DNA of 64,000 bases from Mugil cephalus (lineage: Eukaryota > Chordata > Actinopteri > Mugiliformes > Mugilidae): contig NC_061788.1 in the NCBI RefSeq assembly GCF_022458985.1, positions 1,535,826 through 1,599,825 of the forward strand, read 5' to 3'. Of this stretch, positions 20,335-51,625 are shown one piece after another; position 1 is the stretch's first letter; each line of letters starts with the position of its first letter. The notes beneath the pieces were generated by a model that was not told the DNA's origin, searched no databases, and saw nothing but the letters and a program-made list of their open reading frames with translations. A program made the position numbers and the translations under genes.

Positions 20335-20640
20335 GATAGGATGGTAGGAGGAGCTACTACTAGCTGGAAGGCTAGGAAGCCAGGAGCATATACTATTCTC
20401 TGGGAATCTAGGAAGAGCTACTATTAGCTTTGAGGCTAGGAAGCTGGGATGAGCTACTATTAGCTGAGAGGCTAGGATGATAGAAGTAGCTACTATTAGC
20501 TCGAAAGCTGGGAGGCAAGGAATAGCTACTATTAGTTAGGAAGCTAGGAATAGCTGTTATTAGCTGGAAAACTAGAAAACTAGAAAGAGCTAATATTAGC
20601 TTGGGGGCTAGGAAAAGTTACAAAGCATCGTACAGACCTG
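20335..20640. repeat. 36-bp-type minisatellite block upstream of slc4a5
   Basis: Same family as in tacr1. Its right edge (gggggctaggaaaag, then ctgtttaat) matches the right edge of the block at 21,750-22,255. Confidence 0.75.
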
Positions 20641-20927
20641 TTTAATACTGAAGTATAAACATAGACATGCTGGCTGTGAAATTCAATGTTTGGCTCCATG
20701 TTTTCTCTGTTAGCTGAGGCTAGCTGGTTAGCTCCAGCCATGTGATGCTTGGTATAAATGGAATGAGTAGCTTCTGTAGTTTCCAATGACGTCGATGATT
20801 GTAGCATTCTTTAACGTGAGTTTTATTTACAGCAACCATAAGTCATCTCAGGCTATTCCGATTATTTCAAAAATGATACCCACTGGGAGATCTGTATTAA
20901 AACGTTCCTCTTCATGTCTGTTTCAGG

Positions 20928-26900: not shown

Positions 26901-27354
26901 GAAGATCATGTCCATCAATGCAACAGATATTTCTGTAATTGTGTACGACAGACACAGTCCTAGAAGGTGGTGCTTAAAGAAAAGTCATTTTCCTGTTGAT
27001 CTAAATGAAATATGATGCTTCAAATCAATCTGGAACAAAGTGTATTTGTCATAGAAAAACTGTCAGCGCCTAAAGATTGTATTGTATCGTATCGTATCGT
27101 GTCATATCATGTCTTATCTTATCTTATCTTATCTTATCTTATCTTATCTTATCTTATCTTATCTTATCGTTCCTCTGACTTGGATCAAACTCCGATTTAA
27201 CACTCTTATCTTCTTTTAGTGTCACCTGCTGCAGAGCGACTGCGCCACATCCTGGCCGAAGATGACAGCACGCCGACACCCACGATATTCACTGAGATGG
27301 ACACGCTGCAGCAGGAGGGAGGCGAGTTAGAGTGGAAAGAGTCTGCGAGGTACC

Positions 27355-27392
<38 letters not shown>

Positions 27393-30300
27393 CAGGCGTT
27401 TCATTAGTTGAGGATTGAGAGGGCGAAGGTGACATGGAGGGTGGTGGACCAGGACGCTACATGTGACTGAAGCTGTGGTTTGAATTACACAACGGCCTCA
27501 CGCTGCTTGACAGACTAATCAATTAGTTTCTTCTATAAATAGTCAGAAGAGAACTTTGGTCTAGGGAGGGCGTGGTATCGGTACCAAGGCTGGTATCGGC
27601 ATCGGATCGATACTAGGGTGATGAGATCGATACTTTTGTTACAGTTTCTCTTCTATAAGTCCAACAAATTACCTCTCGCAGAGTTCATGCAAGTCTCCAG
27701 GTCTTTGCATCTTCTCTCAAAACGAATGTAGTTCACACTTTATTTACACTACTGACCAGGGCCATCACTGGTATTAAGGCTGAAAAATATTACTGGAATT
27801 AAATGGATATTAATGAGTGGAATGGATAAGGAGGCTCTGACACTATGAAGTGAAGGGAAATGGATTCATGATCATATTTAAGTGATTATATGTGATTATT
27901 TATTTGAAGTCATATTCTGGTCATTTTATATTAAACTTATCAACTTATTTATTTATTTATTTATTTTGCAAAATAAATAAAATAAAACAACACCAAATTA
28001 TTTAGTGGGGCACCACCACCAGTGCTACTGGTATTGGTATCGGCCCTGTATTTACTTGGTATTGGATCGATACCAAAATTCCTGGTATCGCCAACCCTAC
28101 TTTCATCTCTGTCTGCAGATGGGTGAAGTTTGAGGAGAAGGTGGAGGAGGGAGGAGAAAGGTGGAGCAAACCTCACGTGTCCACGCTGACCCTCCACAGC
28201 CTGTTTGAGCTCAGGACTTGTCTGCAGACAGGAAGTATCCTGCTGGACCTGGAGGGATACTCGCTGCCACAGATCGTTGGTGAGTTTTAGCTCAGGACGT
28301 CCCAGCACTAGACGAGGATCAGCTCCCACCACCTACAATTACAGGAAAGGTTCATCTCGAGTTTAAGAAGTCAGATCGCTTGGGGGCGGAGCTTAATGTG
28401 TGATGGCCATGACATTTTGATTTCATTTTTTTTTTTATTGTGGTCATTATTTTCCCTTTCCATGATTCAATACACAGCATAACATCTCAAAAAAGGATTT
28501 AGGCAGAAGCCAGAGGCTGATAGTATATGTCCATCCTAAATGATCAATCCAACTGAATATCTACAGGAAAACTGAGTATACAATATAGAAAATAAAAGTA
28601 AACTATACAAAAATAGAAAATAAAAAAATGATGAGCTATACAGATATACAAACTATACAAAGATATGCTGATATTGAAAACTGTTGTTGTTTCAGACAGA
28701 TTATATTATCCCTTATTAGATTTATTTTATTATATGAACTATTATTCATATATTTATTACCTTTAAACGTCTGACATCAACCTGCTACTGGAGATTGCTG
28801 CCAACCCAAATTTCGTTGTGTGAAATGCCATTAAAGTTCTTCTCTTTAAATAGTAAAGTAAATATATATATTTTTTTATTATCCATTAGAATTTCCAAAG
28901 TAATTAAAGCTGCGTCTGACATGTAGTGGAGTGAGATGGAAAGTAGCAGAGCCATAACTATGGATAGTAAATTAGAGTTTGTTTATCCACATTAGCTAGA
29001 AGCTAACTCTGGTATGGCTGAGAGCTGTGCACTGTCCCTGTTAAATAAACACACAAATAAATAAATGTAACTCAGAAATAGAGGATTATATCTGAATCAC
29101 AGGTAAATAGGTCCTTTAGTTCTATAGACGTCTTGGTTCTCTAAACCAGTTTCCTTTCTGGATAAACCATGACCTGGATGACTAAGAACCTTCACAGACG
29201 TCTTCCACAGAGGTGAGTAAGACGTCTTTCATGTTCCTTTCCTTCCAGAGGACATCGTGGACCGGCAGATAGTGGACGGCCTCGTTGCTCCAGACCTGAA
29301 GGAGAAGATCATCTTTGTGCTGCTCAGGAAGCACCGTCACCAGACCAAGAAACCCATCCACCGCTCTCTGGCCGACATAGGGAAGTCCTCCAACACCGCC
29401 GCCAGTAAGTGTGTGTTAGCGCTGCACGCTGGCGTCTTCGTCCACCAATCAGCAACAAAGAAAAAACAAAAGAATCATCTCAGCTTCTGATTACGTCCTA
29501 ACGCTTCCTCTGTTTTCCACCCCCTGTCTCACCGCCCCCGTTAAAAACCAAACTCTTCTGTGCTGCTCTGTCAGGCCGTAGTCCTCAGGTTAATCTGAGT
29601 CGTAGCACTAGTTCAGCTTCTGGGATCCACCGCTCCACAGAAGACCTACGCTCTCGGCAGTCAAGCAGCCTTGGCCGCCTGCGTGAGTCTAAACACACCT
29701 ACACCCATACGTCTATACAACTGTACATTTATACATCTATACAACTATACACCACCACTCATACCAACACCTACATAGGGATGGGTACAGATACTGGGTA
29801 CCATGATGCTACCGGTGCTGATGCTAATGGTAGTAACCGGACTGATCTGGGTGCTTCATTTGGTGCCAGTGAGTTTTTAATTAGCTTAGCCTCCTTAGCT
29901 CTATTGATGCAGTTTTTCACTTGCATGGATGGAAGTGAACCTTCAAAATGTCTGAGACCAAACGTTTGTCTAAAGTTTGTCTGGACTTCACCTCTAAAGA
30001 TGCAACAAGGAGGAAACACCTGGAATTAGACTCAACATCTGACCACACATAGCATTTTATTAAAAGACCAGAAATGTAGCGTCTTTGATGCCTGACAGAC
30101 CCCAACACACTGGTTTATTATTTATTTTATATTGGTTCATTTATTTCTCAGTCTTTTTTTATTTATATTATTTAAATTAATATTCTCTTCAACTTGCACG
30201 TCACAAAATGGTATCCAGTCTCAGATAAAACCTGAAGCAGACCCATCCCTGCACCTACACCAACATCACTTTCATACATTTTTAACTATGTGTGCTTCAA

Positions 30301-33300
30301 ACACAAGTTTTCTTTGTTCATAAGGAAATTCAGTTCATTTAAATATTCCCACAAGGCCACTGTTTCTGAAGGTAGAGGTCTGCGTTTCCATGGAGACTAA
30401 AGAAATGCATGTGTTTCCATCAGAACGTCAGTCACTGTAGAACTTTACTGATGGAGAGAAGCATCACATCTACTGGAAATAGAGGAGAAGGAGAAGAAGA
30501 AGAATAGGGAGGAATGAAGAAGGAGAATGAAACAAAGGGGTTGGATGAAGAAAGGAGAAGAAGAAGAAGTGGGAGGAGGAGGATGAGGGGGTAGGAAAAG
30601 AAAAAGAAGAGAGGAGAAGAAGTGTAGGAGGGGGAGGATAAGAAGAAGAAGAAGAAGGAGTTGTACATCAGTGTGATTATTGGAGGAGCTTTGGTCTCCA
30701 TGGGAACGTAGCCACTGATTCATTCTCTTTTAACATTTCTAACATAACTAACTCAGCTGCTGCATGACTTCTCTTGACGTGGCTTCCTGTATATGTGTGT
30801 GTCTGTGTATATTTGTGTAGCGTATGAACTCCCCACGGATACGACGTGTTGGCCATAATATGTGTTTTCTTTAGAGATTTGGCTCCCATTGTGTGAACCT
30901 TTGCTGATTTCTATTGTGAATCTCTCCGGGTGAAGGGGCTTATCGGGGGATTGTTTGGGGCTCTGTGTTCTTGTTCCTCTGTTTAATTTCATTTGTTCCC
31001 AAATCTGCTTTAAAGGGAGAGGGTTGGGGAGGGGGGAAAGAAGTGAGCCATTAAAAATATAATCCTTCACAGAAACCTCTGGTCACGATGAAGGTCTCTA
31101 TGGATCATTTGTTGAGTAAATGTTGAATCTAAAAGTGTTTCCTCATTTGCAGATCCAGCTCAGAGCCGAAGCATGAATGATATTTCAGACACACCGAGCT
31201 CAGACCAGGTGATCTCATTCTCTCTGTTTTTTATGTTCAGCTCACACGAGTTAATATAAAAAATAAAATATATACAGTACTGTGGAGAAGTTTTAGGCAG
31301 GTGTGTATGCTATAAACTAAGAACGTTTTCAAAAATATACAAAATGATTCTTTATTTTTATCAATTTACAAAATGCAAAGCAAGTGAACAAGTCCCATCA
31401 ATATCTGGTGCTACCAGACTTTCCCTCAAACCAGCATCAGCCCTTTTATGTCCACTTCAACAAAGTCAAGTCAGTTAGATTCAGTGGTCGACCAAGGAAA
31501 CTTAGAGGATGAAAAACACATCAAGATTATTTCCCTTTTAAATGTGAAGACGTCCAGCAGAGACATGAGCTCAGAACTGACCCAGGTCCACCATCTAATG
31601 TCTGGACCAGTCTGGAGACAAGTGGTCTTCATGGAAGAGCTGCAGCCAAACATCCGTCCCTCTGACATGGAAACAAGACCAAGAGACTCCACTATGAACC
31701 AGAACCAGAAGCATGGTGGAGGCTCCTGAAGAGTCTGGTCCTCAGGTAGATACTAATCCATCATCAAGACCATCAGGGAGGAGGAGGACGGGCCCCACAT
31801 TTATTCTGCGACAGGACAAAGAGCCCAAACATCCAGACAAGGTCATTAAGAACTATCTTCAGAGGAAACAAGAACAGCATGACCCCCCAGAGTCCTGGTC
31901 TCAGCATCATGGATGGAGTCTGGATTAACTGAGGAAGATATGGGGTCAGTTCTCCAAGATGATTGAGTTCCTTCATGAAGAACTGATGCTGTCTGGAAGG
32001 CTAATGGGGTCACACCAGATCCTGATTTGATTTAGATTCCTCTTCTGTTCATTCATGGTGGAAATAAACTATTAACACTGACATTTTTGGAAACATTCTT
32101 AGTTTACAGCATTTGTTTCCCACTGGTCGAGATGAACCTGCAGAGGATCATGAGTTGATGTTGCAGCTTTGCTGGATGAAGGGAGATCTGTTCTGACTTT
32201 CACCTACGTTTCCCACAATGCTCTATCTATAATCTATAGCACGTCACCACACCCACAGTTCTCAAATCAAAGTTCCACCTTTTTAAAACTCATTGAATTA
32301 TCTGCTGATTTCCTGTTGCCTCTGGGACAATAACGGTGGTTTTATTTTATTTCTGTTTTGTTGTTGTGAAAAGTTGAACAGATCCGTCACTGATGTTCCA
32401 AAAAAGGAACATCAGTGAGTTCAGCTCCGGTCTGGTTGCATGTTTCTTATTTGGGTCGATATCTTGACAAATAATTCAAGGCTGGAGATGAGTTTGTCCT
32501 CTGAGGAAGTTATTTGTTCACAGAAAACTGACAGGACCAGAATAAGTACAGCTGCTTGGAGCTAGTGGATTATGGTTTAGGTTGAAATGTCCTGTTTTTG
32601 GTTGCTTAAGACCAAGAAGTTATGGCCGAGTGAATGAGGACCAGCTGGTGAATTGACTCTGAAAGCTGCATTAACAGATTATGAAGAGATTTGAATCTAA
32701 GCAGCCACCACTCCACTGCCACGTGCTTCCTTGGTTCACATTCGGAGGAGGAGGAGGAGGTATGAAACCAACCAGCTGCTGGAGAATCAAACTCTGGGTC
32801 CAAGGCCGTGGTTCAGGTTGTGTTGGATTAATATTTGCTTTGATTCTTAATCAGGGCTCGATGTCACTAGTTAGAGATATTTTCAGTTTTTAAACTATTT
32901 TATTTTGTTATGAAAGAGATTTCCATCAAACTAACGTTGTTGTTGGTCCCAGAGGTTTGTGGGATGAACTCTGGATGAGTCTAGAGGCTGTTGAAAGTCA
33001 ATCGTAGCGACCACTTATCTTCCTTGGGTTCTGTAAAGGACACAGATGTGTTTCACTGAACTAATGCTGTTCTTCTTGCTGGTGACTCTCCTCTCCGTCT
33101 GTCCTTCCAGCTGAAGAATAAGTTCATGAAGAAGATTCCTCGTGATGCCGAAGCGTCCAACGTCCTGATTGGTGAGGTGGATTTCCTGGACAAGCCTTTC
33201 GTCTCCTTTGTGCGTTTGGCTCAAGCCACGACTCTTGGAGGCCTCACCGAGGTCCCTGTTCCAACCAGGTGGGGGCGCCCCTACTTCTCTCCGTCAACTA

Positions 33301-36300
33301 CACTCAAATATATTGGCATGTGCATGTTTCACCCTTGCAACCTTCTGTCCTCACAGGTTTCTCTTCATCCTGCTGGGTCCTCAGGGCAAAACCAAGTCCT
33401 ACAATGAGATCGGCAGAGCCATCGCTACGCTCATGGTGGATGATGTAAGTGACGAATTCCCCATTCATCAGAGCACAAATCCTTTGGTTTGACTTTAGTC
33501 TTTGCTTCCTGCCAGCTGTTCAGCGACGTCGCCTATAAAGCAAGAGACCGTGAGGACCTGATTGCAGGTGTTGATGAGTTTCTCGATGAGGTGATTGTCC
33601 TTCCTCCGGGAGAATGGGACCCCAAAATACGCATTGAACCTCCTAAGAAAGTTCCATCAGCAGACATGAGGTACGTGCTAAACGTAAAACATATTTTATT
33701 TTATGCTGTCTTTGCATTCATGTACAGAGCTGTTTAACCTCCTGGGACCTGAGCTTTTGTTTGCTTTCTTCATTCTTAATTTCTCCAAGCATTTGGGATC
33801 AGCAGGACCTAAGAAGTATAAAAACTAAGCGTCATCTTTCACCAGTTTTTGAAAAAAAATGAAAAAAAATAGAAACGTTAATAAGCATAAAGAAAAAATT
33901 TTTAACTGTAAAATTTGATTTGGTTTTGCTCTTCGTCCACTTTTGTCCTGTGATCGTCTGTAAATTGAATCTGATGAATCATGTTCTTTCCAACTAGTGT
34001 ATTGACACTTTGCTACCACTAGATGGCTAAAGCGTCCCCTAATGAGGACAGCGGCTTTAAATAAAGCAGAATAATGAAGCAGAGGATGCAGAAAGTTAAA
34101 TGATTCTGGATCCTTCAAAACATCACGAGTCCTGAAAGTAGACACAGAGAACCCAGTCAAACACATGAAAAATAAATATTATACTTGTGCATTTTATTAT
34201 TAATTCAAGAAAATGAATCATCTTTTAGTTGTGTATCTCTGAGTCTAAGTATGTGAACCTTTGCTTTCAGAATCTGGTGCAGCAGTAAATGTGTCTGGTA
34301 ACCGCTGAGTAGTTTACAGTTTTAAAACAAAACCTTTCATCACATCCTTTTTAAACACTTGTGAACTGATGGACTCTTATTTGGTGCATTTACTCCTACA
34401 CCTCACAGATATCTAATATTGGCTCATTTTCCTGAATAAACAAAGTAAATTATTTGTGTTTCATGTGTTTGATATGGTTCTCTGTGGACTTAACCGGCCT
34501 TGTATGTTGAACGAATCATCAGTTTATTTCCCTTTGCCTGTAGAAAAATGTTAAATATCTTTTACTGAGTTTAGAACCAGATTACAAAGAGAACCAGCAA
34601 ACAGAACATCAGGAATATGATAATCACCCTGTGATAAATGGCAACGAATAAAGTTAAAACGATGTGAAAGTGGTTGCTTGTTGTTTTGAAATGTGTCTGA
34701 ATGTATTTTGATCCCAGGAAGTCGGTGCTGAACCTGAATGAGCTGGGTCAGATGAACGGCTCGGCGGGCGGAGCAGCTGGTGGAGAAGACGAGGAGCTTC
34801 CAGCTCCACATGAGCTTGGAGAGGAGCTGAAATTCACTGGGAGGTATGAGAGGACTGGAAAATGTCTATACTAGAGGTCTCCCTACATATGTGTATATAT
34901 TGGCACACCTTGCATAACTGCACGAAGCCTCATGGCACAATTCAATTCAACTCGTTCCTCCTCCTGTTCTGTGTAGTTTTTGGTTTCTTTGTTGGTCCAG
35001 TTCTCCCACTCATTTTTATACTTCTTTCATAGATATAAACTGAAAGGTTAACTACTTAGCTTAACTTGCTTCAACCAAGTGTCAAGTACCACACTGAGGA
35101 CAGATGATAGACCAACATCTAAAGCTTTTTTTAGAATGAAACGTGATCTACCGGTCAATTGACTGTTTTTGCACCCATGGTCTAAACCATGTGACACAGT
35201 CCAGCTATGGTTGAGTTTTATGAAGGTCCTCAGTTGTAAGAGACCGGAGGGAAGTTTGAGGTTTAAATATGTTGCTTGACTTGTTTCTGTAAGAACCAGA
35301 AACTGGTGCCACTAGTTGCCTTTAATGGCTACAATCTGACATAGACAAGTGAAGGAAGCCATGTCAGATTGGAAAAATCCTTCTCTAAACGGAGGAGGTG
35401 GACTGAGATATAATCTGCCATCAATTTACAATCCAGTCTTAACTTCTGTCCCCAAGACACTGTTCACACCTTGAGACTGGAGCCTGTGACTGATAATGGC
35501 TTCATTGGAGCACCAACTTCCCTTAAAGGGATACACCAGCCCTATGTAAAATTTAGTCACTCACCGTATTCCCCACAGTTGGATAAGTGAGAAAAAGCAT
35601 TTTAAAATCGGTCCAGTAGTAAGCAGGTGGCGTATCCCTTTAACCACAGGTAAGTATCCACCTGTCAGATCTCTACAAGTCCAGTTGCCCTTTTAATAAA
35701 CCTTTTGGACTGTGGTCGAGTTCTTTTATCTTAACCGAGTGCTTGCTTTAATAGATTTTGTGGTGGATTGTGGCTGGACATCAAAAGGAAGATGCCATGG
35801 TACTGCAGTGATATCTACGATGGTTTCCATATCCAGTCCATCTCTGCTGTGCTCTTCATCTACCTGGGCTGCATCACCAATGCCATCACCTTTGGAGGAC
35901 TTCTAGGGGACGCCACCGACAACTACCAGGTCTGCAATGAGGGCTGCTGCATAAAAAAAGCTTCCTGACTACCTCACATGTGAATTCACGTCTTTCTATC
36001 CGTCTCTGTGCCTCAGGGAGTGATGGAGAGTTTCCTCGGCACCGCTTTAGCAGGGACCGTCTTTTGCGTCTTCAGCGGGCAGCCTCTCATCATCCTCAGC
36101 TCCACCGGACCCATTCTCATCTTTGAAAAGCTGCTTTACGAGTTCAGCAAGTGAGACGCACACATGCTAAAGCTCTCGATTGGCTTCTGTGCGAGTGGCG
36201 ACAACACGTTAATGTTCGTCCCTTCCCTTCTGTCCTGGCAGGAGCAACAGTATAGACTACATGGAGCTACGCCTGTGGATCGGCCTTCACTCCTGTCTGC

Positions 36301-39300
36301 AGTGTTTCCTGCTGGTCATCTCAGACGCCAGCTACATCATCAAATACATGACCCGCTTCACAGAGGAGGGGTTCTCCAGCCTCATCTCCTTCATATTCAT
36401 CTCTGACGCCATCAAGAAGATGGTGGGTAACGAGCGCCAACGAATCCTTGAACAAAACTTAGTTAGTTCATGTCGAGGTAAAAAGATTTAAGATTTGAGA
36501 AGTGTGAAAACCTCTTGTTCTCGACAGGTGGGATCCTTTAAGTATTACCCAATCAACCGAGGCTTCAAACCAGACTTCATCACGTCCTACAAGTGTGAAT
36601 GCATCGCTCCAGACCAGGGTGAGTCTTCAAACCGTTTGATTAATAAAGACACGAGGACAGTACATGCTCCTACATCCTGGGTTTTCACTTTCAGTCTTTA
36701 CTCTGTGGTGATTTTCTGTATCTTTTCTGTTTTTGCCACATTTTTGGATGCTGTCTGAAAAAGTGAGTATGTCCATAGAGATGAGCTGTTAGTGATGATG
36801 AAGTTTATCATCTGCTACAACTGTGACTAGGGATAAGCACTGATGTCCATTCTGGTCTTCACCTGGTCCATTTACCTGGTGTTAATGAATTAAAACGTGT
36901 CTCCATTAATTCGTCCTCAGCCAGAACTGGAGATCTGGTCTCAGTCTGTGTGTAAATCAGCAGCAGCGCCACCATGTGGTCAGTAGAATATTGTATCAGC
37001 TGCTGTCTCTGATGGATCTCTACCTACCACTGGACCAGAACCAGGAACACATGGTTATTGACTTGGAGACATGATCTAGATTTAGGAACCAGATGGAAAG
37101 GAAGAAGTTCTAATTTATTTTATAGACAAAGACTCGGATTAGAGCTGAAACCTGGAGGCTTCCTCCATCCTCAGAGTCATATCCTGGTCAGTAGCTGGTC
37201 TTTAATGGGATCAGGACTCATGGCTTCACACTAACCAAAGGAATGCGGTCACACAATGTCGACTCAGATGGAATCACTTTAAGATGGACATGGATGTTAA
37301 ATTGAGGTCTGAATCCAAAAATCCACTCATTATTAATTTGTTTCTCTATTTCTTCTTCTTTTTTTGTCTTCAGCATCTGTGCTGGGCTTGAATGTTTCAG
37401 CTCCACCCTCAGATGATAACATGTCTCTGCTGGTAAGTGACAGAAGGCCGAAAAAATGAGAGGTTTCAGAATCTCTTTTACAAATTGTTGTTACTGAGAT
37501 TTGTGAAAATATTTTTTTTTAAGTAGTTTGATGGTGTTTTTGTCGTGTCAAGTTTGAGCCACAGAAATCTCAGCCTGTATTTATCAAGCGTAGATAAACT
37601 GGACGAATCAAGGTACAGCAGGGTTACAGTGTGCAGTGGACGGTTATATCCACAATATTAAAATATGCAATGTTGGGTGGAAAATATGATCATTGATTGG
37701 AAAGCATATCGGTCAACATCTGAGAAACCCCATGACCGCTTCCGGATGATGTCACTTCATACATATTCGTGGAAATTCAACCATGTTCGCGGTTAGACAA
37801 CACGGGTTTCATTTATTTTTCACAATACGTTTGGAAGCGACAGCTCAATGAAGGCAGCTTGATGGACCTTGTTTACATAGTAACAGTTGCTAGGATGCAT
37901 GATTGGATAATTGGGGGCGAGGTTTTTGCAAAAGGTCAATTCAATCCAGATGTTCCCAGACTCAAACTCTAATAAGAATTACATCTGGGTCAAAACAGAG
38001 GTTTACGTCCTGAGCTCATCATGTTTTTTAGGAATGACTCTTGCTAATTACAGGCCGAGGTGAAGTTTTTATTCATGTGGCTGTTAGAGCTCCGTGGCTT
38101 CTTTTTCTTCTGTTATCGCTTGTCTCTTTTCTCTCTTTTGTCTGCTTTGTCTCCACTCCTCTACCCATCCTTCCATATCTCCTCGTCCTCCTCCTCCCTC
38201 CGTTGGTGTAGTTTAACTTGACAGACATGGACTGGAGTCAGCTGAGTAAGAAGGAGTGTGTAAAGTATGGCGGCGTGCTGGTGGGGAACTCCTGTAAGTA
38301 TGTCCCCGACTTGGCCCTCATGTCCTTCATCCTCTTCTTCGGCACCTACTCCATGACCGTTTCCCTCAAGAAGTTCAAGTTCAGCCGCTACTTCCCGACG
38401 AAGGTAAGACGAAGCCGGAGCATGTGTCAACACCTGTAGGATGAAAACTTTCCCGGATACGACTTTAATGCTGCAAACCAGGAAACCTGCATGTGAAGCA
38501 CTGGAGTCCTAATGAGGGAAAGGACCGGTGATATGAAACCACGAATGGGATTTACTTTCTAAGATTGGATTATAATGTTCACAAGCTCAAAACAGATAAA
38601 TAAGAATACTTAAATAATAAATGTAGAATGTCACCATCCTTTTCCTTTTAAAGCTGCTCTGAGTTTCATCTCCACAAAAAAAAAAAAAAAAGCTGAAACA
38701 ACTGGACTTGTTGAGTTTCTTGCACTTTTCATTTAATTTCCTTAACAAGACGAAAAATAATCATCAGTGACCACGAGTTAGAACTAACACCTGATGGTAA
38801 AAACTAGGAGGAAATGTTAATGAGATGAGACCAGAATGTTATTTAATATGATAATATGTTATTTAAATATCGGATATTCAAACTACACAATCTCTTAGTT
38901 CAAAATGCGTGACCTCGTCATGTGATCTCAGTTAGCATTAGCTATCAAAACTAGCTAGCTGCTCATATAAATACTATGAACAGTGGCAATTTTGGTTTGT
39001 AAATTCTGGGGCCATGCAGGAAAATCTTATAATACATTCCAGAAACACCACAATCAATACCCTCACAACAAAACCACACTAGCAAGTGAGAGAGGAGACC
39101 ACAGCACAAACAGGTAACAACAAAATTACAGCTGAATGATGCCATCACACAAAGTGACGTCATATATTGTCACATCAAAAGCGCCACCAAACGGCAACAT
39201 TCAAGCTCTCACTATATCAGATACTCAGGATCGAAACAATAATGTGAGAATAATAAAAACACATAATGGACGAGTCATGGTGTGAACGGCGCACACACCC

Positions 39301-42300
39301 ATTACACAGCAATCAATACAGTCACCACAGCCATGTCAGCACCACAGACAGTTACACATTACACACATTACACAATAAATCAAACATTATGTAAACTACA
39401 TTATCAATTCCATTTAGATTAAAAATCATTAGACTCACCAAGCACCTTTTTGACAAGCTCCCTGTTAACAAAGTGTTCCTCTTCAACCACTCCTGGTTGA
39501 ATGTCCTTGTCTTTTCCCTCTTGAAAAGTTCAGACTTTTTACTTTCACATATTTAAACAGTGCCGTGCACCATGGATTAGCATTTAGCATGTAGCTAACA
39601 CTATCTATGAATGTAGTTCCTGGAGTGAATCCTTCTTGTGTTTGCTATGGGTTGTGCCTAGTTAAAGGTTGAGGACAGTCCAAGTCCAGTTTGTTTGTTT
39701 CAGCTTCTTTTTTTTTATTTACACCACAACCTGAATGACTATGAACCTTCCTCCTCCTCCTCCTCCATATCCATCCCTCTCCAGCTCCGTTCCCTCATCA
39801 GTGACTTTTCCATCATCATTTCCATCCTGGTCTTCTGTGGCTTGGACGCCCTCCTGGACCTCAACACACCCAAGCTGCATGTCCCCACTGAGCTCAAGGT
39901 CCTGCCTGCACAGCTCCCACCTTCATTCAGACCTTTCTGTCCTCTTCAACGCCTTTTGATCAGTTTAAAAGATTCTTTCACTCTCTCTTCTCTCTGTCTC
40001 TACTTCCCTCACGTTGGAACCGTCCTCTTGGACGTTTCGTCTTCCTTCTTCGTTTTTGTTGTTTGTTTGTTGGTCGGCCGCTAGCTGAGGAAGCTAATCA
40101 GTGATTTTGCCATCTTCATGTCAATCATGACCTTTGTGGGTCTGGATATGTTGATGGGGTTAGACACACCCAAGCTAATCGTACCAACAGAGTTCAAGGT
40201 ATTTAAACCTTTAAATCCTTTAACTTTCTACAGGCATGCTAGCTGTGGTAGTGCTACTAAGTACTTTGAGCTTCTTATACCACAGAGGAAAGAAGTTTTG
40301 CTTCATTTTTTCATCTTAAAAAGTTGGCGCATTAAATCTAAATGAACCTTTATGCTTCATAGAAGCTATAATGAGACAGAAGTTGCATGTTTTACCTGAA
40401 TAAAATGATTTATTGTTCATCTCCTACATACTACTTAACATCTAAAAATCTACTAACAAACGTATGATCTTTTTGCCGACTCCCTCATACAGATGTGAAG
40501 CGATGACCGTCCTCGCTTGTGTGTTTATTTATTTCTTGTCTACTTCTTGTCGTGTAGCCGACGCGTCCAGACCGAGGCTGGCTGGTGCTGCCGTTCGGTA
40601 AGAACCCCTGGTGGTGGTACGTGGCCAGCTTCGTCCCCGCCCTCCTCGTCACCATCCTCATCTTCATGGACCAGCAAATCAGCGCCGTCATCGTCAACCG
40701 CAAAGAAAACAAGCTGAAGGTCTGCACACAAAAAAACGGAACTGTCAATAGTAACTTCATAATAATAAAAATAATGAGAAGAAGAACTCCCCCCTCTTGC
40801 CCCGGCTGCAGAAAGGCTGTGGCTATCACCTGGACCTGTTCTGGGTGGGGGTCCTGATGGCAGTCTGCTCCTTCATGGGTCTGCCCTGGTACGTGGCGGC
40901 CACCGTCATCTCCATCGCCCACATCGACTCTCTGAAGATGGAGAGTGAATCCAGCGCCCCCGGAGAGCAGCCCCAGTTCCTGGGGGTCAGGTGAGACGAA
41001 GACGAAGCTGAGCTCATCACAGAGAAGTTAAAGACGACATGAATATTTAAGTCTTCACCAGCTCCTCTGTTAAACTCAGGGAGCGGTTGGTTCAGGGAGA
41101 GAGGAGCAGGTTCTAGTTCTAGTCCTGGACGTTCACATGAGTCAATAAAGTTAAAGACTGGAGGACAAACATGTTCATCTCCATCATTTACCACTGACAC
41201 CTCCACCTGGTCTCCACCGCTGGAAGAAGAACCTGTTGGATCTCAACAAGGTTCTAAGTAGAATTTGAAAATGCAACAAGAAGAAACAGGCTGTTGATTC
41301 ATCATCTGATCCACAGTTAGAATGAGTTCGAGTTAATGAATGGAGGAGCTACTCATCACTGAGTCCTTTTTGACTCGTTCATTTCTGTTTTGAGGATTTT
41401 ATTTTTTTTAGCTCTGGTCTTAAACTTTTGATCAGTCCTCCTCTCAACCCTCCTCCTCCTCCTCCTCCTCATCACTGGGTCAGTTGATAGAAGAATCTCC
41501 TTTCTGTCTCGTCCTCTGACAGATTTTCTCCTAAACTGCATCGTCTTCAATAGCGACTAAAGAAACTAACACATCTGATGGCGTAAAATAAAGATGGAGG
41601 ATCAGAAATGCATTTAAAAGAGCTGATTTTCTTTAAAGTTATGTTTTATTTTGGGTATTATGGTTAAAATATTGCTCTATGTTGGTGTCTGTTTCATGTC
41701 TCTATCAGCCCAGACGATCTTAATCTAGTGGCGATTAATTAATATTTTCTCCGTCTCTAGAGAGCAGAGGTTGACGGGTATTCTGGTTTTCGTTCTGACT
41801 GGACTCTCGGTCTTCCTCGCTCCCGTCCTCCAGGTCAGTTTGTTGGAGGCATTTTTCCTTAAATCGTTTACTTTTATTCTTTATTGAAGTTCAAACTTCA
41901 CTGCTGGTCTCTCTGATTCAGTTCATCCCCATGCCGGTCCTCTACGGAGTCTTCCTCTACATGGGAGTGGCCTCTCTGAGCGGCATCCAGGTGGGTCGAA
42001 GTCGTTTTCTTTGAAGAGTCCAAAGGTTTTTGAACCGTTTCTAAACCGTGGTCGTCCATCCTGCTCCTCCTCCTCCTCCTCCTCCTCCTCCTCCTCCAGT
42101 TCTGGGAGCGTATCAAGCTGTATCTGATGCCAGCCAAACACCAGCCCGACTTCTCCTTCCTACGCCACGTCCCCCTGAGACGGGTTCACCTCTTCACCCT
42201 GGTCCAGATCGTCTGCCTGGCCGTCCTCTGGATCCTCAAGTCCACGTTCCTGGCCATCATCTTCCCAGTAATGGTGAGTACGGCTGGGAATGATCTTAGT

Positions 42301-45300
42301 GTGAAAGCAAACGTGACTGAAGCTGGTTAGCGGTTGCCTGGGATCTTGAGGAATCGATGACATCTGAAGGATACAGTCAAAACTGCTTCCAGTCTCCACC
42401 CATAGTTAGCATGTTAGCTGCAGGAGGGCTTCCCTTCCTTCAGTCCTTCTCATTCCATATAGTAGAGATGATCATTTTGCCTTCTTTGTCCCATCAGTAA
42501 CTGTAGAACCCAGTAGGACTTGTCTGTGGAGGCTTTTAAGTCGTCCTGGTCCTGGTCATAGTTTACCCAGAAAACACAAAGCTAGAACAAGAAAGAACTG
42601 GACCTTTACGGTTTCTTGAGGATGTTTCATCCATGTCTTCAGTTTGTCAAGTTCCCTATTAACTGTCTTTCTGAAACTGATGGTCTTTCCCTGTTTGTAG
42701 ATCCTGGGTCTGATGGTCCAGGTCTGATGGTCTTTCCCTGTTTGTAGATCCTGGGTCTGATGGTCTAGGTCTGATGGTCTAGGTCTGATGGTCTGATAGT
42801 CTAGGTCTGATGGTCTGATGGTCTGATGGTCTTTCCCTGTTTGTAGATCCTGGGTCTGATGGTCCAGGTCTGATGGTCTTTCCCTGTTTGTAGATCCTGG
42901 GTCTGATGGTCTAGGTCTGATGGTCTAGGTCTGATGGTCTGATAGTCTAGGTCTGATGGTCTGATGGTCTGATGGTCTTTCCCTGTTTGTAGATCCTGGG
43001 TCTGATGGTCGTGCGGAAGCTGCTGGATCTGATGTTCTCCCAGCACGACCTGGCCTGGCTGGACGACATCCTGCCAGACAAAGACAAGAAGAAGAAGGAG
43101 GACGAGAAGAAGAAGAAAAAGGACAAGAAGGTGGTGGAGCCGGACAGCGACGAGGAGGTGAGGGACCAGGATCCATCTTCTTCTACTGTGTTTTTAAATG
43201 TGTCTCCATGTGTTGTGTCTGTGTCATTCGTGGCTTTGTTTTCTCTGACTAATACAGTTCGTTTCTCCTCTTTGTCCCACAGTGTTGCTGAAAAGGCACT
43301 GTATAACACTTACTACGGTCTTTCTGTCTGTCCACCTGTCCACCCGTCCTCCCGTCCCACTCTGCTCCAACTCTTTAGAAAACATTTGTTTATTTGTTGC
43401 TTTTATTTCCTCGTCTCTTTGGTCCTCGTTGAACTGATGGTGTTTCTTAGTTCCAATATAAACACAGCGGTCGTCTCTAAAGTTTGTTACTGTTTGATAC
43501 AATAACCCTTTGGCTAGCAGGCTAGCTACGTGGCTAACGTTCAAAACAAACAGAAATATGATGCTCCACGACACATGGGGGCGCTAACGTCCTGGTTTGG
43601 GCCTGTTCTGCTGCATCTGCTCATCATTGATGGACCAATGAACTGTGAATTCTACCAGTGAACTCTGAAAGAAAATGTCAGGACATGAGTCCATGAGCTG
43701 AATGTGAAGAGAAACTGGGTCATGGAGGAAGACAGGAAGGAAGGAAGGAAGGAAAGATAGGAAAGGAAGGAAGGAAGTAAGGAAGGAAGGAAGGAAGGAA
43801 GGAAGGAAGGAAGTGGAGGGAACTCTGTTGTAAATGCCTGGGCGTCATATATATTTATATATATATTAATAATGTGCAGCAGTAACAAACCCAGAGCCCC
43901 TCCCCTCCTCCTCCTCCTCCTCCTCCTCCTCCTCCTCCATCTTTATCCTTTGAGAGCGTCCGTCCAGTGTTTCCTGCATGTCGACTACTTCCTGTCTCTG
44001 TCTCAGCCCTTCAGCCCCGTACCCCCCCCAGTCCACATCCACATGGGTCCCATAGAACCCGGCTCAGAGCCAGATCCCGACCACCTCGACCCCCCCTCCT
44101 CTGACTGTGAGTACTCCGTCCTCCACCTCTCGTTGTGTCCGTACAGTTTGTCTTTAAAAAAATTTAATGCCGTTAATAAAGTAAAATGTAAATTCATGAT
44201 AATCCGTTTTAATGTGTAGTTGTGTTAAATCATCACAGGTTGTGTTGCTGTCTAAATGATGGTAATAGTAGAGTTACAGGATTATCTTCTTAATGATTTA
44301 TTAAAATTCACTAGTAGCAGTAGTGACTGTTCAGCAGTTACCAGAAACATACAACAAGAAACATTCTGAATAATTTGCCAAATTGTGAATTTTTGCCTTT
44401 AAACAGACACTTCCTGCTTCACACGCAGCCACCAGTGAATATTTTATATTCTATGGTTTTATTCACCTCCTTGTGTTTCTTTCTTTCTTTTCTTTTATTA
44501 TTAGGATCCCCTTAGCAACTCCCCGTGCTTATGGTATATATTTAATTAATTAAATATATTTAGCTATTTATTCATTTATTTATTTAATTTGGAGTAAAAA
44601 TTTCCAATTTTTCTGAATTATTTATTTATTTATTTATTTATATTGTTTGGGGTTTTTTGAGTATTTTTTTTTCTTTTCACTTTTTCTGAATTTTTCTTTC
44701 TTTCTTTCTTTTTTTTTTTTTAAAAAAAAACTCCTCTGTTTTTCACGTTTTTTTTCTTCCCTGTTTTCAGGTTAATTTTTTTCCCAATTATTGAGATACT
44801 TTGAAGTCCACGAGAATACAGCATATTTATACGCCATAAATAAATAACTTAATACCTAAATTTATTTAATTAAATAAATAAATGAATAAATAAATAACTT
44901 AATACCTAAATTTATTTAATTAAATAAATAAATGAATAAATAAATAACTTAATACCTAAATTTATTTAATTAAATAAATAAATGAATAAATAAATTTAGG
45001 TATTAAGTTATTTATTTATTTATGGCATATAAATATGCTGCATTCTTGTGGACTTCAAAGTATCTCAATAATTGGGAAAAAAATTAACCTGAAAACAGGG
45101 AAGAAAAAAAACATGAAAAACAGAAGAGTTTTTTTTTTTTAAAAAAAAAGAAAGAAAGAAAGAAAAATTCAGAAAAACTGAAAAGAAAAAAAATACTTAA
45201 AAAAACCCAAACAATATAAATAAATAAATAAATAATTCAGAAAAAAAAGGAAAATTTTACTTCAAAATACAAAAGAAAAAAAAAAAGATTTTTATTTTTT

Positions 45301-46487
45301 CAAGTGAATGTAACACGCTTCCATAAGAATCATAAGAAACATAATTTACCATCTAAAATGCTCCATTTGTTCACACATCCATTCAAAGTCACTACAATTA
45401 CCTGATATGAAATATGTTAAATCATAATTCATTAAATACTAAAAGTCTCTGTATTAAACCTGTGATATAAAAACCTCGTTCTCTGGAGCTACTTGTAATA
45501 ACTCTCTCTGTTTCTACATGTGTTTTTGCTTCGTCTTGTTTCGCTCTCTCTCCGTCATGCGTGTCGCTGCTTCCCCCCCCCACAGGAAACCAACCCCTAC
45601 TCCACGGTCACGTCCGACCAAACCGAGCTGGACCGCAGGTACTGTGTGCTGAAACTACACGTACCCTACAGTGATCTGAACCCAGGCTGGGACCACACGG
45701 CCACACAACACCACCACCACCACCACCACCACACATAGTTACTCCATCCATAGCTGCTGCTGTGACACGTGTATTTATATGTACAGTGTGCGTCGGGTTT
45801 TAGGCTTTTTGTTCGATTGTAGAATATATTTGTGTTTGCTTGTGTTGTGTTTACACTGCGGCCGTGTACAGTAGAGATAACACAGAGCTCTGTTAGAAAC
45901 GACTGTGAACGGTTTCTGTAAAGATTCTCAGTCCCACAGATAAAATAATAATAATAATAATAACAACAACAAAGTTAAACAAAGGGAATTGGACTTGTTG
46001 AGTTTACTGTTTTATCTGAGTATCTTCACGTAAGTGACCCTGACCCCACAACACCCAGACTTTGGCACTTAGTAGTCAGACGCCTGGCTGCCCCAAGTCC
46101 ATATAGTCAACAAGTTCACCTGCATTAAGGGCTGCACGATTATGGCCAAAATGATAATCACCATTAATTGATCAATATTCACGATTATTCATCATGTTAA
46201 GGAAAACATCTGTATTTTTATCGCACCACTTTTAAACAAACCCCATTGCACAAAGAGACGTCCCAACGAAGTCTTTTCCAAGTTTTTTTTTTTTTCTAAT
46301 TCAGGTCCCTGACGGTTCAGACTGTGACACCAGACGACGTCTTTTTTCCGACGTCTACTGAACGTCCACATGACCTCTGTATAAGGGCTAAATGTCCAAA
46401 TGTGGACGCCTTTTCTGCGTCAAATTTAAACTCATTTCAGATTCTCAGATGCGATATGTGAACTATTTAAACAAGAATAAATGCTTG

Positions 46488-46523
<36 letters not shown>

Positions 46524-47710
46524 TAAAATTTACCAAGGGCTAACATGCTAAACATGCTATTACAGGGTGCAAACACAACCACACATCTTCTTTGACTTGC
46601 AAACAATTCAATAAAAAATTTCAACTACTTTTACAATTACATTCTTTAGTTGATATAAATTGGAAGGCTAACTCCTTAGCTCGCTAGCGTTTTGCAGCAG
46701 CTCATGTGTTTGATTGTCATCGTGCTACAGTGAAGATAACTGACAGAATAACATCTAAAACCTTTTTTTTTTTTTTTTTTTTAATGAAAGTCGTGCACTA
46801 CCTTCACGGTTTACCAACCTCTAGGGCCCCCCTGATCTACAGGTATTAGTGAGACAGCTAATGCTAGCATGCTAATGCTGGATGCAGAGACTGGGAACAT
46901 TTCAAGTCTTTTACATTTTACAGAATTATGAGTTTTAATACTTAATACGTTTGCAGGTTTCCAGTGTTTTTTTTGTTGGATTGGTGGTACTGCAGTTACC
47001 CGTTAATGTTCAGAAACTTCAGGCTCAAGTTGTAAATGTAAATATCAAGTCCAGTTGTCTTTGTGTCAGCTTTGTTTTTTTGTTTTTTTTCTTTTTTTAT
47101 CTCTTGTGTGCAGTCAGAATATTCGTGAAAATTCAGTCTTTTGTGTCCCTTAACTTTTAATAGTGTCAGTAGGTCCTGGCATATCTAGCTTCTATGTTTA
47201 TAATCTCTTTTCTTCTGTAAAATGTGTACATTCTGCATCTGTTAGTTTCATTTTACAGATTTCACTGTGAAAAGTCACAGCGTTAGATTACGTCACAGTC
47301 CCACGGCTTTACGCTGGTCTACATTATGTTTCTATTCAGGGAGGTTTGATTTAAAAAAAAAAAAACTTCTCTGTAAAGCTGAACAGTTTAGTTTCCTTGA
47401 ATTTTTTTTCTACTTTCGGTTTTTTAAGAAGAAGTCACAACGAAAACTGATGTAAAAAGACTTTGAGTAGAAAACTGACTTTAGGAGAAGAGTCTGAAGT
47501 CTGTTGGTGGCTGAGACACGAACGCTATTAAAGGTTGTGACGGTGGAACTTCATCTTCTTTGTACGAGCAGATTTATTGTGACAGGATTTTGGTTGTTTC
47601 TTTTTCTAATTGAACCAATTTGCTGCTTCTCTCTCCTGCATTTCATCCTTCTGCACGGCTACAGTCCTCTCCCTGGTTTATATTCCACACTAATATGTTT
47701 TCAGATGTGG

Positions 47711-47753
<43 letters not shown>

Positions 47754-48981
47754 TAATATTTGTTTATACGTGAAATTAACATTTTACCTTCCTACTTCTT
47801 GTATACTGTAGTCCTTAGTCTGCATCTAATCTTAATTAATAAACCTTTTCCATGGGTGCATGCATCTCCTTTCTTCTCCATCTAACATCTTCAGAGCAGC
47901 TTGAAGAGCAGCGCCCCCTACAGTCCGACCACCGTGTAGCACGCTGCAGCTTTGAAAAGTTCCCACCTTTAAACCTGTGCACCGTTATCGATTCCCACTT
48001 CATGCAACTTGAGCTTTGTGTTTGGTTTATGGCTCAGTTTATTAGGGACATGGGATTAAATGTGAAGCAGCCGTCCTGCAACAAAGAGCTGAGCAGCTGG
48101 TAGATTTGAACCGAGAGCTGGAAGTAAAAGTTAAAATATGCTGCAGTTTTTTTGTTTTCAAGATTCAAGATCACTTTAATGATCCACGCAGGGAAACTGT
48201 TTTGTCCAAGAGTCTCAGGATAACAGAGAACATGAATGTGACCAGACACAGACATAAGAGTAAATGTATTTAATTCTGTCATGATTTAGAGCGGGAGTGT
48301 CAAACTGAATTTAACCTTTAGTGCAAAGAAGTGCATTCTAAACTGTTAGATTTCGTTTTACAAAACATTTTATGAAAAGCCTGAAAGCAAAGTGGTTTAC
48401 GCAGATCTGTTGATTATTAGATGCACGAAAAATGAATCTGCAACTTTATTTATGAGCAAATAATTGTTTTAAAAGCAATAAAAAAAGAGGTAGAAGTTTG
48501 TTTTTCTTTGTTCTGACTTCTAAAGTTGGACAAAATGAGATGTTTGAATTGTCAGTTTATAATTGTGGGACCTTTTGAGTTTAACATATTTGATATTTAG
48601 TCTGTTTTCAGGCCTAAAATCACCTGTAACCAATCAGCACATTTTTACTTCTAAATATTATCTATAGCCGGTTGCAGGACGGTCTGAGTTCCTCTGTGTT
48701 CCTAATGAACTGGAAACTGTGTGAGAGATGAGACGGAGAGTAAAAGTGTTCCACCACCACTGTTCCTCAGCATCACTCTGCACCTGAAGATCACGTGCCC
48801 CCCCTCACCTGCTCACTCCCAGACGAGCCTCGGGCCCGAGGACGCTCCGCCGCACCGGCCGGTCCCTCAGGTCAGCATCCGGGTGGAGTCGGACTGCGAG
48901 GAGTCTGGCTTCTATCGGCCGCCTCCTCGTGGGAAGCTGCACGCGCACTTCAGCGACGCCTGCGCTGAAACCATCCTGTAG
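20928..48981 (+). CDS. slc4a5: Electrogenic sodium/bicarbonate cotransporter NBCe2
   Basis: Plasma-membrane cotransporter of Na+ with two or three bicarbonate/carbonate equivalents. Coding exons: 20928-20997, 21299-21508, 23478-23528, 27220-27349, 28119-28279, 29249-29404, 29575-29682, 31153-31208, 33111-33268, 33357-33444, 33516-33670, 34718-34843, 35755-35929, 36017-36150, 36242-36422, 36528-36618, 37374-37432, 38212-38403, then 39785-39898 or 40085-40198, 40558-40719, 40812-40990, 41761-41833, 41922-41990, 42100-42273, 42993-43157, [44007-44106 cassette], 45586-45638, 48771-48981. All phases agree, giving 1,166 aa without the cassette (human 1,137). Basic HRRKRRRHH near residue 40 resembles the NBCe1-B N-terminus. 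A cytosolic domain spans about 111-480 and the membrane domain about 515-1040. Sequons at N690, N699 and N705 lie in the large extracellular loop. MDQQIS carries D843, by my count the equivalent of NBCe1 Asp754. KLKK is at 857-860. A Lys-rich tail precedes a C-terminal [24 protein letters not shown] and KPTRPDRGW fit SLC4A5 better than SLC4A4. The start ATG follows an acceptor, so a 5'UTR exon lies upstream. Confidence 0.96.
21299..21508 (+). CDS. slc4a5: slc4a5 exon 2: basic/His-rich N-terminal regulatory segment
   Basis: 210 nt, entering in phase 1 and leaving in phase 1. It encodes [19 protein letters not shown] followed by a run rich in His, Asp, Arg and Tyr. The YIGV plus arginine cluster matches the segment of NBCe1-B and the NBCn proteins that mediates autoinhibition and IRBIT binding (family knowledge; function here is inferred). 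Confidence 0.85.
21750..22255. repeat. Minisatellite block in slc4a5 intron 2
   Basis: Degenerate units of the 36-bp family (gctaggaag, agctactatta). The sequence just upstream (21,580-21,720) resembles the flank at 2,183-2,455, so the same dispersed unit inserted here. Confidence 0.75.
22510..23300 (+). other. Unexplained segment before slc4a5 exon 3
   Basis: Holds a 115-codon open frame (22,621-22,968) with Ser/Leu/Arg-rich content ([24 protein letters not shown]) that I do not recognise, and no clear splice sites of its own. Its first 50 bp (gggggcggggcttaatgtg) recur near 28,380, so at least part is repeat-derived. It could also be a promoter or untranslated first exon for an isoform beginning in exon 3. 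Confidence 0.3.
23478..23528 (+). CDS. slc4a5: slc4a5 exon 3: 51-nt exon, in-frame cassette or alternative first coding exon
   Basis: Bounded by cttagctcag and gtaaag. It adds 17 residues without changing phase (phase 1 in and out), encoding [17 protein letters not shown] before VSPAAER. The internal ATG has A at -3 and G at +4, so a transcript beginning here would start [12 protein letters not shown]. NBCe1-A arises in this way from an internal promoter (family knowledge). There is no transcript evidence. Confidence 0.7.
23655..23930 (+). repeat. Interspersed repeat, inverted copy at 56,955-57,195
   Basis: Shares ctctctggcgtgatgagaat, tatgggata and ctctcatgaggtggtttt with the reverse complement of the later copy. 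No coding potential; probably a MITE or SINE-like family. Confidence 0.6.
24291..24560. mobile_element. Two copies of a gggctgtca...attaatcgcatga repeat
   Basis: agggctgtcagtagattaaa with gcgattaatcgcatga near 24,291 and gggttgtcaatggattaaag with gcgattaatcacatga near 24,487. The wording resembles hAT-derived ends in fish. Direct orientation, 196 bp apart. Confidence 0.5.
25900..26150. repeat. Interspersed repeat (cttgaagatgtttcatccaagtc)
   Basis: The phrase ttgaagatgtttcatccaag and variants appear twice here and again near 15,760 and 42,600. Confidence 0.5.
27085..27170. repeat. (CTTAT)n microsatellite
   Basis: Pentanucleotide units directly upstream of the slc4a5 exon at 27220. Confidence 0.9.
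27357..27390. repeat. (AC)n microsatellite
   Basis: Begins eight bases downstream of the donor of the exon ending at 27,349. Confidence 0.95.
27562..28103. mobile_element. hAT-like non-autonomous element abutting an slc4a5 splice acceptor
   Basis: Left end agggagggcgtggtatcggt and right end ctggtatcgccaaccctac are imperfect inverted repeats (outermost agggttggcgatacc type). Internal ggtatcggcatcggatcgat and ggtattggatcgatac motifs also pair. No coding capacity. It ends about 15 bp before the exon at 28119. Confidence 0.6.
28280..29248. other. slc4a5 intron, no exon seen
   Basis: Contains the gggggcggagcttaatgtg repeat fragment shared with 22,520, otherwise AT-rich. Confidence 0.4.
29776..30230 (+). 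repeat. Interspersed repeat family R3, copy 1 (slc4a5 intron)
   Basis: Contains gtgctgatgctaatggtagt, aactgatct-type wording, gtgcttcatttggtgccagt and aattagcttagcctccttag. The same order occurs at 53,941-54,225 (reversed) and 62,520-63,340. The TTAAATTAATATTCT tail with cgtcacaaaatg is shared with 63,280-63,330. Confidence 0.7.
30475..30662. repeat. Polypurine (GAA/GGA) tract
   Basis: About 190 bp that are almost purely A/G on the plus strand. Prone to triplex formation and length change. Confidence 0.8.
31209..33110. other. slc4a5 intron containing a decayed Tc1 copy
   Basis: Apart from the element at 31,272-32,115 no feature was recognised. Confidence 0.5.
31272..32115 (+). mobile_element. 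Decayed Tc1-like element
   Basis: Begins tacagtactgtggagaagtt with gttttaggcagg and ends in an inverted attcttagtttacagcattt. Recognisable transposase wording survives in broken frames, such as ggacaaagagcccaaacatc and aaggtcattaagaactatct, but stops and frameshifts abound. It is older than, and of a different family from, the intact element at 9,984-11,589. Confidence 0.7.
33671..35754. other. slc4a5 introns flanking the exon at 34718-34843
   Basis: Unremarkable apart from 35,030-35,160, which resembles 46,650-46,850 (aaggttaactacttagctta compared with aaggctaactccttagctcg). Confidence 0.4.
36838..37060 (+). repeat. Interspersed repeat, inverted copy at 61,600-61,795
   Basis: Shares cagccagaactggagatctg, gtctcagtctgtgtgt, gccaccatgtggtcagtaga and gatggatctctacctaccac with the reverse complement of the later copy inside sez6l. 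Confidence 0.75.
38404..39784. other. slc4a5 intron before the duplicated exon pair
   Basis: No exon recognised. It ends in a (CTC)n-rich polypyrimidine stretch before the acceptor at 39,784. Confidence 0.5.
39785..39898 (+). CDS. slc4a5: slc4a5 alternative transmembrane exon, version a
   Basis: 114 nt, phase 0 on both sides, 38 codons starting [15 protein letters not shown] and ending LHVPTELK. It encodes the helix before the KPTRPDRGW loop (TM7 in a 14-helix count). Its FCGLDALL and KLHVP wording matches the mammalian SLC4A5 exon. Acceptor ccctctccag is good; donor AAG|GTCCTG is weak. It is paired with the exon at 40085-40198. Confidence 0.88.
40085..40198 (+). CDS. slc4a5: slc4a5 alternative transmembrane exon, version b
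   Basis: Also 114 nt, phase 0 on both sides, starting [15 protein letters not shown] and ending LIVPTEFK. It is identical to version a at 25 of 38 residues and fully open. KLIVP and the F in EFK are closer to SLC4A4. Acceptor ggccgctag has a poor pyrimidine tract; donor AAG|GTATTT is moderate. Using both exons would keep frame but insert a second copy of the helix, so mutually exclusive use is likely. Confidence 0.88.
42061..42099 (+). repeat. (CTC)n microsatellite forming a splice polypyrimidine tract
   Basis: Thirteen-odd CTC/TCC units run straight into the CAG acceptor of the slc4a5 exon at 42100. Confidence 0.9.
42680..42992 (+). repeat. Tandem array of duplicated 3' splice sites (slc4a5 intron)
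   Basis: The string ctttccctgtttgtag plus the first 18 nt of the next exon occurs five times, with AG ends at 42,700, 42,747, 42,846, 42,893 and the real one at 42,992. Spacing of 146 bp between alternate copies shows a higher-order unit. The four upstream copies run into TGA or TAG within nine codons. Filler is tctgatggtctaggtctgat-type repeat. Confidence 0.88.
43158..44006. other. slc4a5 intron with (GGAA)n and (CTC)n repeats
   Basis: Carries a GGAA/AGG tract at 43,733-43,813 and a (CTC)n tract at 43,905-43,938. No exon seen. Confidence 0.5.
44007..44106 (+). CDS. slc4a5: slc4a5 cassette exon controlling the C-terminus
   Basis: 100 nt between ctctgtctcag and GTGAGT. It encodes [18 protein letters not shown] and a Pro/Asp-rich continuation ending PPSSD, resembling the human NBCe2 tail segment with FPPPSVIKIPM. 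Its length is not a multiple of 3. Joined to the exon at 45586 it creates TGA across the junction, giving a 1,112-aa protein without the PDZ ligand. Skipping it keeps the frame to ETIL. NBCe1 uses a 97-nt exon in the same way (recalled). Confidence 0.78.
44582..45268. mobile_element. Foldback (long palindrome) element around a 50-bp tandem repeat
   Basis: Arms of about 260-270 bp are near-perfect reverse complements. Examples are gttttcaggttaattttttt at left with aaaaaaattaacctgaaaac at right, and tttgaagtccacgagaatac with attcttgtggacttcaaag. Between them lie three direct 50-bp copies of taaataacttaatacctaaa and its continuation (44,841, 44,891, 44,941). No coding capacity. It sits in the slc4a5 intron after the cassette exon. 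Confidence 0.88.
45586..45638 (+). CDS. slc4a5: slc4a5 penultimate exon
   Basis: 53 nt starting [17 protein letters not shown] and ending AG before GTACTG. It joins phase 0 from 43,157 (cassette skipped) and passes phase 2 to 48,771. A stretch of CAC repeats follows at 45,708-45,735. Confidence 0.75.
45639..48770. other. Last slc4a5 intron
   Basis: 3.1 kb with (AAT)n tracts near 46,490 and 47,712, an hAT-like fragment at 46,128-46,205 (gggctgcacgattatggcc) and a retroelement tail near 48,170. No exon recognised. Confidence 0.5.
48771..48981 (+). CDS. slc4a5: slc4a5 terminal coding exon with PDZ-type ligand
   Basis: Acceptor ctgttcctcag. The exon encodes a Pro-rich stretch, [14 protein letters not shown] and a final AETIL before TAG at 48,979-48,981. 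VPQVSIRVE lines up with VPQIRIELE of the NBCe1-C tail, which ends ETTL (recalled). An internal ctcag at 48,866-48,870 could give a shorter version. Confidence 0.8.

Positions 48982-50043: not shown

Positions 50044-51625
<1,582 letters not shown>

Follow-up and report, generated by a model that had tools for sequence, protein, structure and literature searches.

Does slc4a5 (NBCe2) of the mullet Mugil cephalus offer a choice between two versions of one transmembrane exon? The initial annotation of a 64,000-nucleotide stretch of the mullet genome (the window) had proposed that two adjacent exons of this gene, a and b, form a mutually exclusive pair. The protein of mullet isoform X2 (P0119) maps onto 20928-48978 exon by exon, so the window indeed carries mullet slc4a5, and the models of isoforms X2-X4 are b-only. 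The elements relevant to the question are the following:

20928..48978, + strand: slc4a5 (NBCe2) coding span, Mugil cephalus (tblastn of isoform X2, P0119, against the window; exon-by-exon match)
38212..38403, + strand: upstream exon (TM6), with a strong donor, AAG/gtaaga
39785..39898, + strand: exon a, TM7 and start of extracellular loop 4 (EL4), a-type (sequence; a-type clade in tree)
39899..40084, + strand: a-b intron, 186 nt, with a very weak donor, a CU-rich tract with PTB-like motifs and a 111-nt AG-free zone before b
40085..40198, + strand: exon b, TM7 and start of EL4, b-type (sequence; identical in P0117-P0119)
40558..40719, + strand: downstream exon, remainder of EL4 and TM8

Two TM7 exons in tandem in mullet slc4a5

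The pair is real as described. Exons a and b are each 114 nt long, in phase 0 and without a stop codon, are preceded by AG and followed by GT, and encode peptides identical at 25 of 38 residues; the junctions proposed at 38403 and 40558 agree with the exon boundaries that we found, and all three introns around a and b are of the GT-AG type. When aligned with human NBCe1 (chain 6caa, position 680 onward), both exons fall on the same gate-domain helix, TM7, and the first part of the loop that follows it, as had been claimed. The two versions differ at exon positions 3, 9, 11, 12, 15, 16, 18, 22, 24, 25, 27, 32 and 37, and ten of these 13 differences fall at positions 9-27, in line with the suggested clustering inside the membrane. 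Chance resemblance was gauged on all 118 stretches of the 64 kb, on either strand, that are open, 114 nt long and flanked by AG and GT; only a itself and b reached at least 12 of 38 matches to a.

The matching mullet proteins carry the name electrogenic sodium bicarbonate cotransporter 4. Among the matches listed, isoforms X4, X3 and X2 (P0117-P0119) contain exon b letter for letter and lack a; isoform X1 is not among them, and the P0119 cluster has two members. Of the 38 residues, human NBCe2 shares 23 with a and 19 with b, and human NBCe1 shares 26 with b and 24 with a, which bears out the reported likeness of a to mammalian SLC4A5 and of b to SLC4A4; the two mullet slc4a4 genes are 74% and 66% identical to b, versus 63% and 58% to a. 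Orthology to SLC4A5, and not to SLC4A4/7/8/10, is borne out by a tree that sets the slc4a4-like and electroneutral-like exons apart.

When the whole genome was searched with exon a, ten places were returned: a and b themselves, plus a single place in each of eight further genes, whose names are inferred from similarity. One of the eight is the mullet slc4a5 ohnolog (C8), which has a single b-type TM7 exon 261 nt after TM6 and no a; the other seven are sodium-bicarbonate-type genes (two slc4a4-like, five electroneutral-type) with one TM7 exon each and the same boundaries. A single 114-nt TM7 exon is thus the layout of the mullet relatives, and the exon pair belongs to SLC4A5. The TM7 exon of the second slc4a5 copy (L012, C8:23453200-23460300) differs from b in the window in that its acceptor tract is good and its AG-free zone measures 38 nt.

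The exon pair in proteins of other species

Two protein searches (best 120 of 7991 and best 120 of 634 matches) together yielded 159 proteins. Four of these (P0109, P0121, P0124 and P0133) lack the anchor motif and were left unclassified; the other 155 gave 157 rows, comprising, among the matches listed, 109 tandem, 37 a-only, four b-like and seven irregular rows. The irregular rows were left out, leaving 150 classified rows; these counts are biased, as the query of one search held both exons, which favours tandem proteins, and as each search contributed its best 120 matches. The four b-like rows are the three from the mullet and one from a different gene (P0004). Models of slc4a5 with a only, with b only and in tandem all occur among the matches listed.

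The initial annotation had named relatives as the place to look for the pair, and absence of the second copy from all of them as an outcome that would speak against it. Among the matches listed, both exons are present in proteins of 86 species besides the mullet, including sharks, rays, gar, many teleost groups, a frog, lizards, turtles, birds and the platypus. In some cases there are several tandem isoforms per species. Models with a only were found in 21 fish species, and seven species have both tandem and a-only models (matches listed). One low-quality model (P0005, Coryphaenoides rupestris) lacks both TM7 exons: it twice splices TM6 directly to the exon that follows b. Gill, one of the tissues that the initial annotation had named for expression checks, may be a poor choice, as slc4a5a of the sea bass was not detected in this tissue (PMC7692064); judging from its length and its a exon, the sea bass slc4a5a is probably the ortholog of the window gene.

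A further search with the platypus a exon returned 112 proteins, of which 107, four of them from frogs, hold a without b by motif; ten of the 107 show an unusual stretch after a. Of the remainder, the platypus holds both exons, three proteins matched neither motif, and one lizard scored as b, since the motif misses its form of a; its row in the other classification is tandem. The human and mouse proteins listed, NBC4a included, are a-only. Loss of b in eutherians is likely, though not certain, as a query consisting of exon a is blind to b-only mammalian proteins.

Probable use of one exon at a time

We consider it likely, with good though not full confidence, that the pair is an ancient tandem duplicate of the 114-nt SLC4A5 TM7 exon of which a or b is used one at a time. 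Each functional mRNA would then hold either a or b, and the two resulting NBCe2 transporters would be the same except for TM7 and roughly the first dozen residues of EL4. A chain with a second TM7 would, judging from the 14-helix fold, have TM8-14 on the wrong side of the membrane, so that working mRNAs should hold one copy. We infer one-at-a-time use from the b-only mullet models and from the a-only models of 21 fish species (matches listed) and mammals; against it stands the observation that tandem is the commonest form among the matches listed (109 of 150 classified rows). The tandem rows are database models, some of which may rest on RNA reads, and if they do, exclusion either leaks or does not take place. 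The AlphaFold predictions for the b-only mullet protein P0117 (mean pLDDT 32.8) and the tandem protein P0024 from Anarrhichthys (48.5) were too poor for a structural conclusion.

Two other readings of the models have to be weighed. Exon a might be a cassette that this lineage can do without, seldom included or in decay in the mullet, with the b-only protein as the working form. In favour of this are the b-only form of all three mullet models listed, a donor of a that scores as very weak on our approximate matrix, and the greater variability of a: mean identity among the matches listed is 0.75 within a and 0.85 within b (0.62 between a and b). However, exon a of the window is open, agrees with the 83 other a sequences listed at all 13 positions at which these do not vary, and has H32; a-only models exist in fish and mammals, as given above; and mullet isoform X1 is not among the models listed. 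We therefore regard a dispensable a as unlikely. Slightly less probable still is that both exons are normally spliced together and that the tandem protein is real, its extra helix being tolerated or used. The predominance of tandem models from sharks to platypus and the preserved reading frame speak for such a protein, but the additional helix would, by the 14-helix fold, invert TM8-14, the proteins listed for human and mouse have a alone, the three mullet models skip a, and the counts come partly from a query that favours proteins with both exons.

Splice sites and candidate exclusion devices

How would joint inclusion of a and b be avoided? The initial annotation had ascribed one good and one poor splice site to each exon. 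Scored alongside the other TM7 exons (ten in total) with an approximate matrix, the donor of a (AAG/gtcctg, score -3.67) stands out as the weakest of the ten, while a has a good acceptor tract (81% pyrimidine). Exon b combines a poorer tract (56% pyrimidine) with a middling donor (1.93 on the same approximate matrix), but both lie within the ranges of the eight single-exon paralogs (acceptor tracts 56-88% pyrimidine, donors 0.43-6.44, again approximate); the claim is thus borne out in part, with the donor of a as the one site that stands out. The a-b intron has the very weak donor of a at one end and the poorer acceptor of b at the other, and each single path would pair one of them with a better partner. 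Double inclusion would therefore have to join these two poorer sites; with the sites of b inside the paralog range, this weak-with-weak model rests mainly on the donor of a.

The a-b intron is 72% pyrimidine and contains UCUU and CUCUCU motifs, a composition compatible with PTB-type control, and binding of a CU-rich repressor could set the choice between a and b. The usual, though not obligatory, exclusion devices (steric hindrance, U2/U12 mismatch, NMD) were looked for at the pair and none was seen; exclusion may still come about by regulation. The exon lengths are multiples of 3, so that neither reading frame nor NMD enforces the choice of one exon. Candidate branch points lie 61, 82 and 113 nt from the donor of a, and a further candidate at 27 nt has AGs between itself and the acceptor; steric exclusion by a branch point near this donor is not supported, the plausible candidates lying at least 61 nt away, beyond the roughly 50 nt proposed as the limit. 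Exon b is preceded by an AG-free zone (111 nt) that exceeds the 15-43 nt found in the eight single-exon paralogs. The case for this zone as a special feature of b is nevertheless weakened, as within the gene it is not unusual, being only the third longest among 24 putative acceptors, which were placed by nearest AG and of which at least one (36574) lies inside coding sequence. Inverted repeats between introns amounted to 15 pairs, eight of them formed by one and the same A-run/T-run; RNA pairing between introns was set aside; one 16-nt pair, formed by 38509-38524 and the beginning of exon a, is probably due to chance.

Age of the duplication

In a maximum-likelihood tree of 55 exon sequences (38 columns), the 24 a-type exons, from sharks, gar, teleosts, tetrapods and human, form one clade with support of 98/95. 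The b exons do not form one clade in the best tree, and a single b clade was not rejected (p-AU 0.361). Among the matches listed, the 84 distinct a and 50 distinct b sequences have no residue in common at positions 11, 18 and 32. At position 3 all b sequences have K; most a sequences have S, T or A there, and six have K. Within the mullet, a and b differ at dN 0.32 and a saturated dS of 1.7. Long-term retention of both copies is borne out by the non-overlapping residues at three positions together with the a clade across jawed vertebrates. An a clade from sharks to human and residues that separate a from b indicate that the TM7 exon was most likely duplicated before living jawed vertebrates split, and that both versions have been kept distinct since. 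This split dates to over 400 million years ago. Tandem exon duplicates do arise repeatedly in other genes, but independent recent duplications in several fish lineages are contradicted by the grouping of shark, gar, teleost and tetrapod a exons together and apart from b (98/95 over 38 columns), and we give this explanation almost no weight.

The same two exon versions in database proteins from sharks to platypus suggest that the pair is probably an old, built-in choice between two NBCe2 forms that was missed by mammal-based studies. If so, the a-only mammalian protein on which present knowledge is based would represent half of the ancestral repertoire.

A histidine at position 32 of exon a (39878-39880), at the start of EL4, is present in 82 of 84 distinct a-type and none of 50 distinct b-type sequences (matches listed). 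We regard H32 of exon a as a candidate for external pH sensing.

Relation to known exon pairs and NBCe2 variants

Tandem homologous exon pairs are a known kind. A survey of human genes, in the part available, reports 236 events of tandem duplicated, mutually exclusively spliced exons in 214 genes (PMC9741552). Like the pairs described there, a and b are adjacent homologous exons, those of the survey being mostly ancient, that exchange a homologous stretch of protein; unlike in that set, one-at-a-time use in slc4a5 is our own deduction. The main text of the survey contains no word beginning with SLC4. The SLC25A3 pair, as described in the accessible text of PMC5740500, is likewise found in a solute carrier, where the choice of exon replaces part of a folded domain, but SLC25A3 belongs to a different family and its tissue switch is documented. 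Exons 4a/4b of OGDH resemble the slc4a5 pair in their short intervening intron and AG-free zone, whereas in OGDH the distance from branch points to the 5' splice site is 25-41 nt, according to the available part of that report (PMC7969005), closer than any plausible slc4a5 candidate.

Splice variation of SLC4A5 itself has been described in the form of the NBCe2 variants NBC4a-g, including a 16-residue cassette, epsilon, in the membrane domain, which a review, in its accessible sections, calls the only known membrane-domain cassette (PMC4664831). Cassette epsilon derives from another exon (27) and is optional, whereas a and b constitute a homologous swap; those sections of the review name no a/b-type exon pair (PMC4664831). 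A search of the open-licence literature for slc4a5 or sodium bicarbonate cotransporters with mutually exclusive exons or exon duplication found no description of the pair.

Possible consequences of the exchange

As the exon carries the start of EL4, exchanging it could switch charge stoichiometry. EL4 connects TM7 with TM8 and is bound by carbonic anhydrases IV and IX, as stated in the available text of PMC3867943. According to the accessible sections of the NBCe2 review, replacing EL4 of NBCe1 by that of NBCn1 renders the transporter electroneutral, the opposite swap turns an artificial electroneutral transporter electrogenic, and how SLC4 transporters set their stoichiometry is unclear (PMC4664831). 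As these published swaps alter electrogenicity, a functional switch brought about by the a/b exchange is plausible by analogy, and the exchange may tune transport or the response to extracellular pH through TM7 and EL4.

Inside the membrane, a has I11 and C18 in common with electrogenic NBCe1, and b has F11 and V18 in common with electroneutral-type genes, but b also has K3, I32 and F37 in common with NBCe1, which makes a stoichiometry switch a reasonable, unproven hypothesis. That the pair is a natural switch of charge stoichiometry (or of extracellular-pH response), with b specifying an undescribed, possibly less electrogenic NBCe2 not found among the eutherian proteins returned, is a tentative suggestion from residue comparison that we think rather doubtful. 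If it were true, a natural 38-residue swap (TM7 and the start of EL4) would open the stoichiometry question to tests with two native isoforms.

Other features of the window

Several repeats were seen elsewhere in the window. A tandem array at 42677-43010 (146-nt unit, 2.3 copies, 100% match; also 47-nt sub-units) lies just before the slc4a5 exon at 42993 and repeats this exon's 3' splice site and initial bases several times. A minisatellite family with a 36-nt unit (GCTAGGAAG...GAGCTACTATTAGCTGGGAG) forms separate arrays at 479-848, 2448-3728, 4768-4939 and 20337-22195, one group of which sits between early slc4a5 coding exons. On the minus strand, 50060-50733 contains a polyubiquitin coding repeat of three 76-residue units in one frame.
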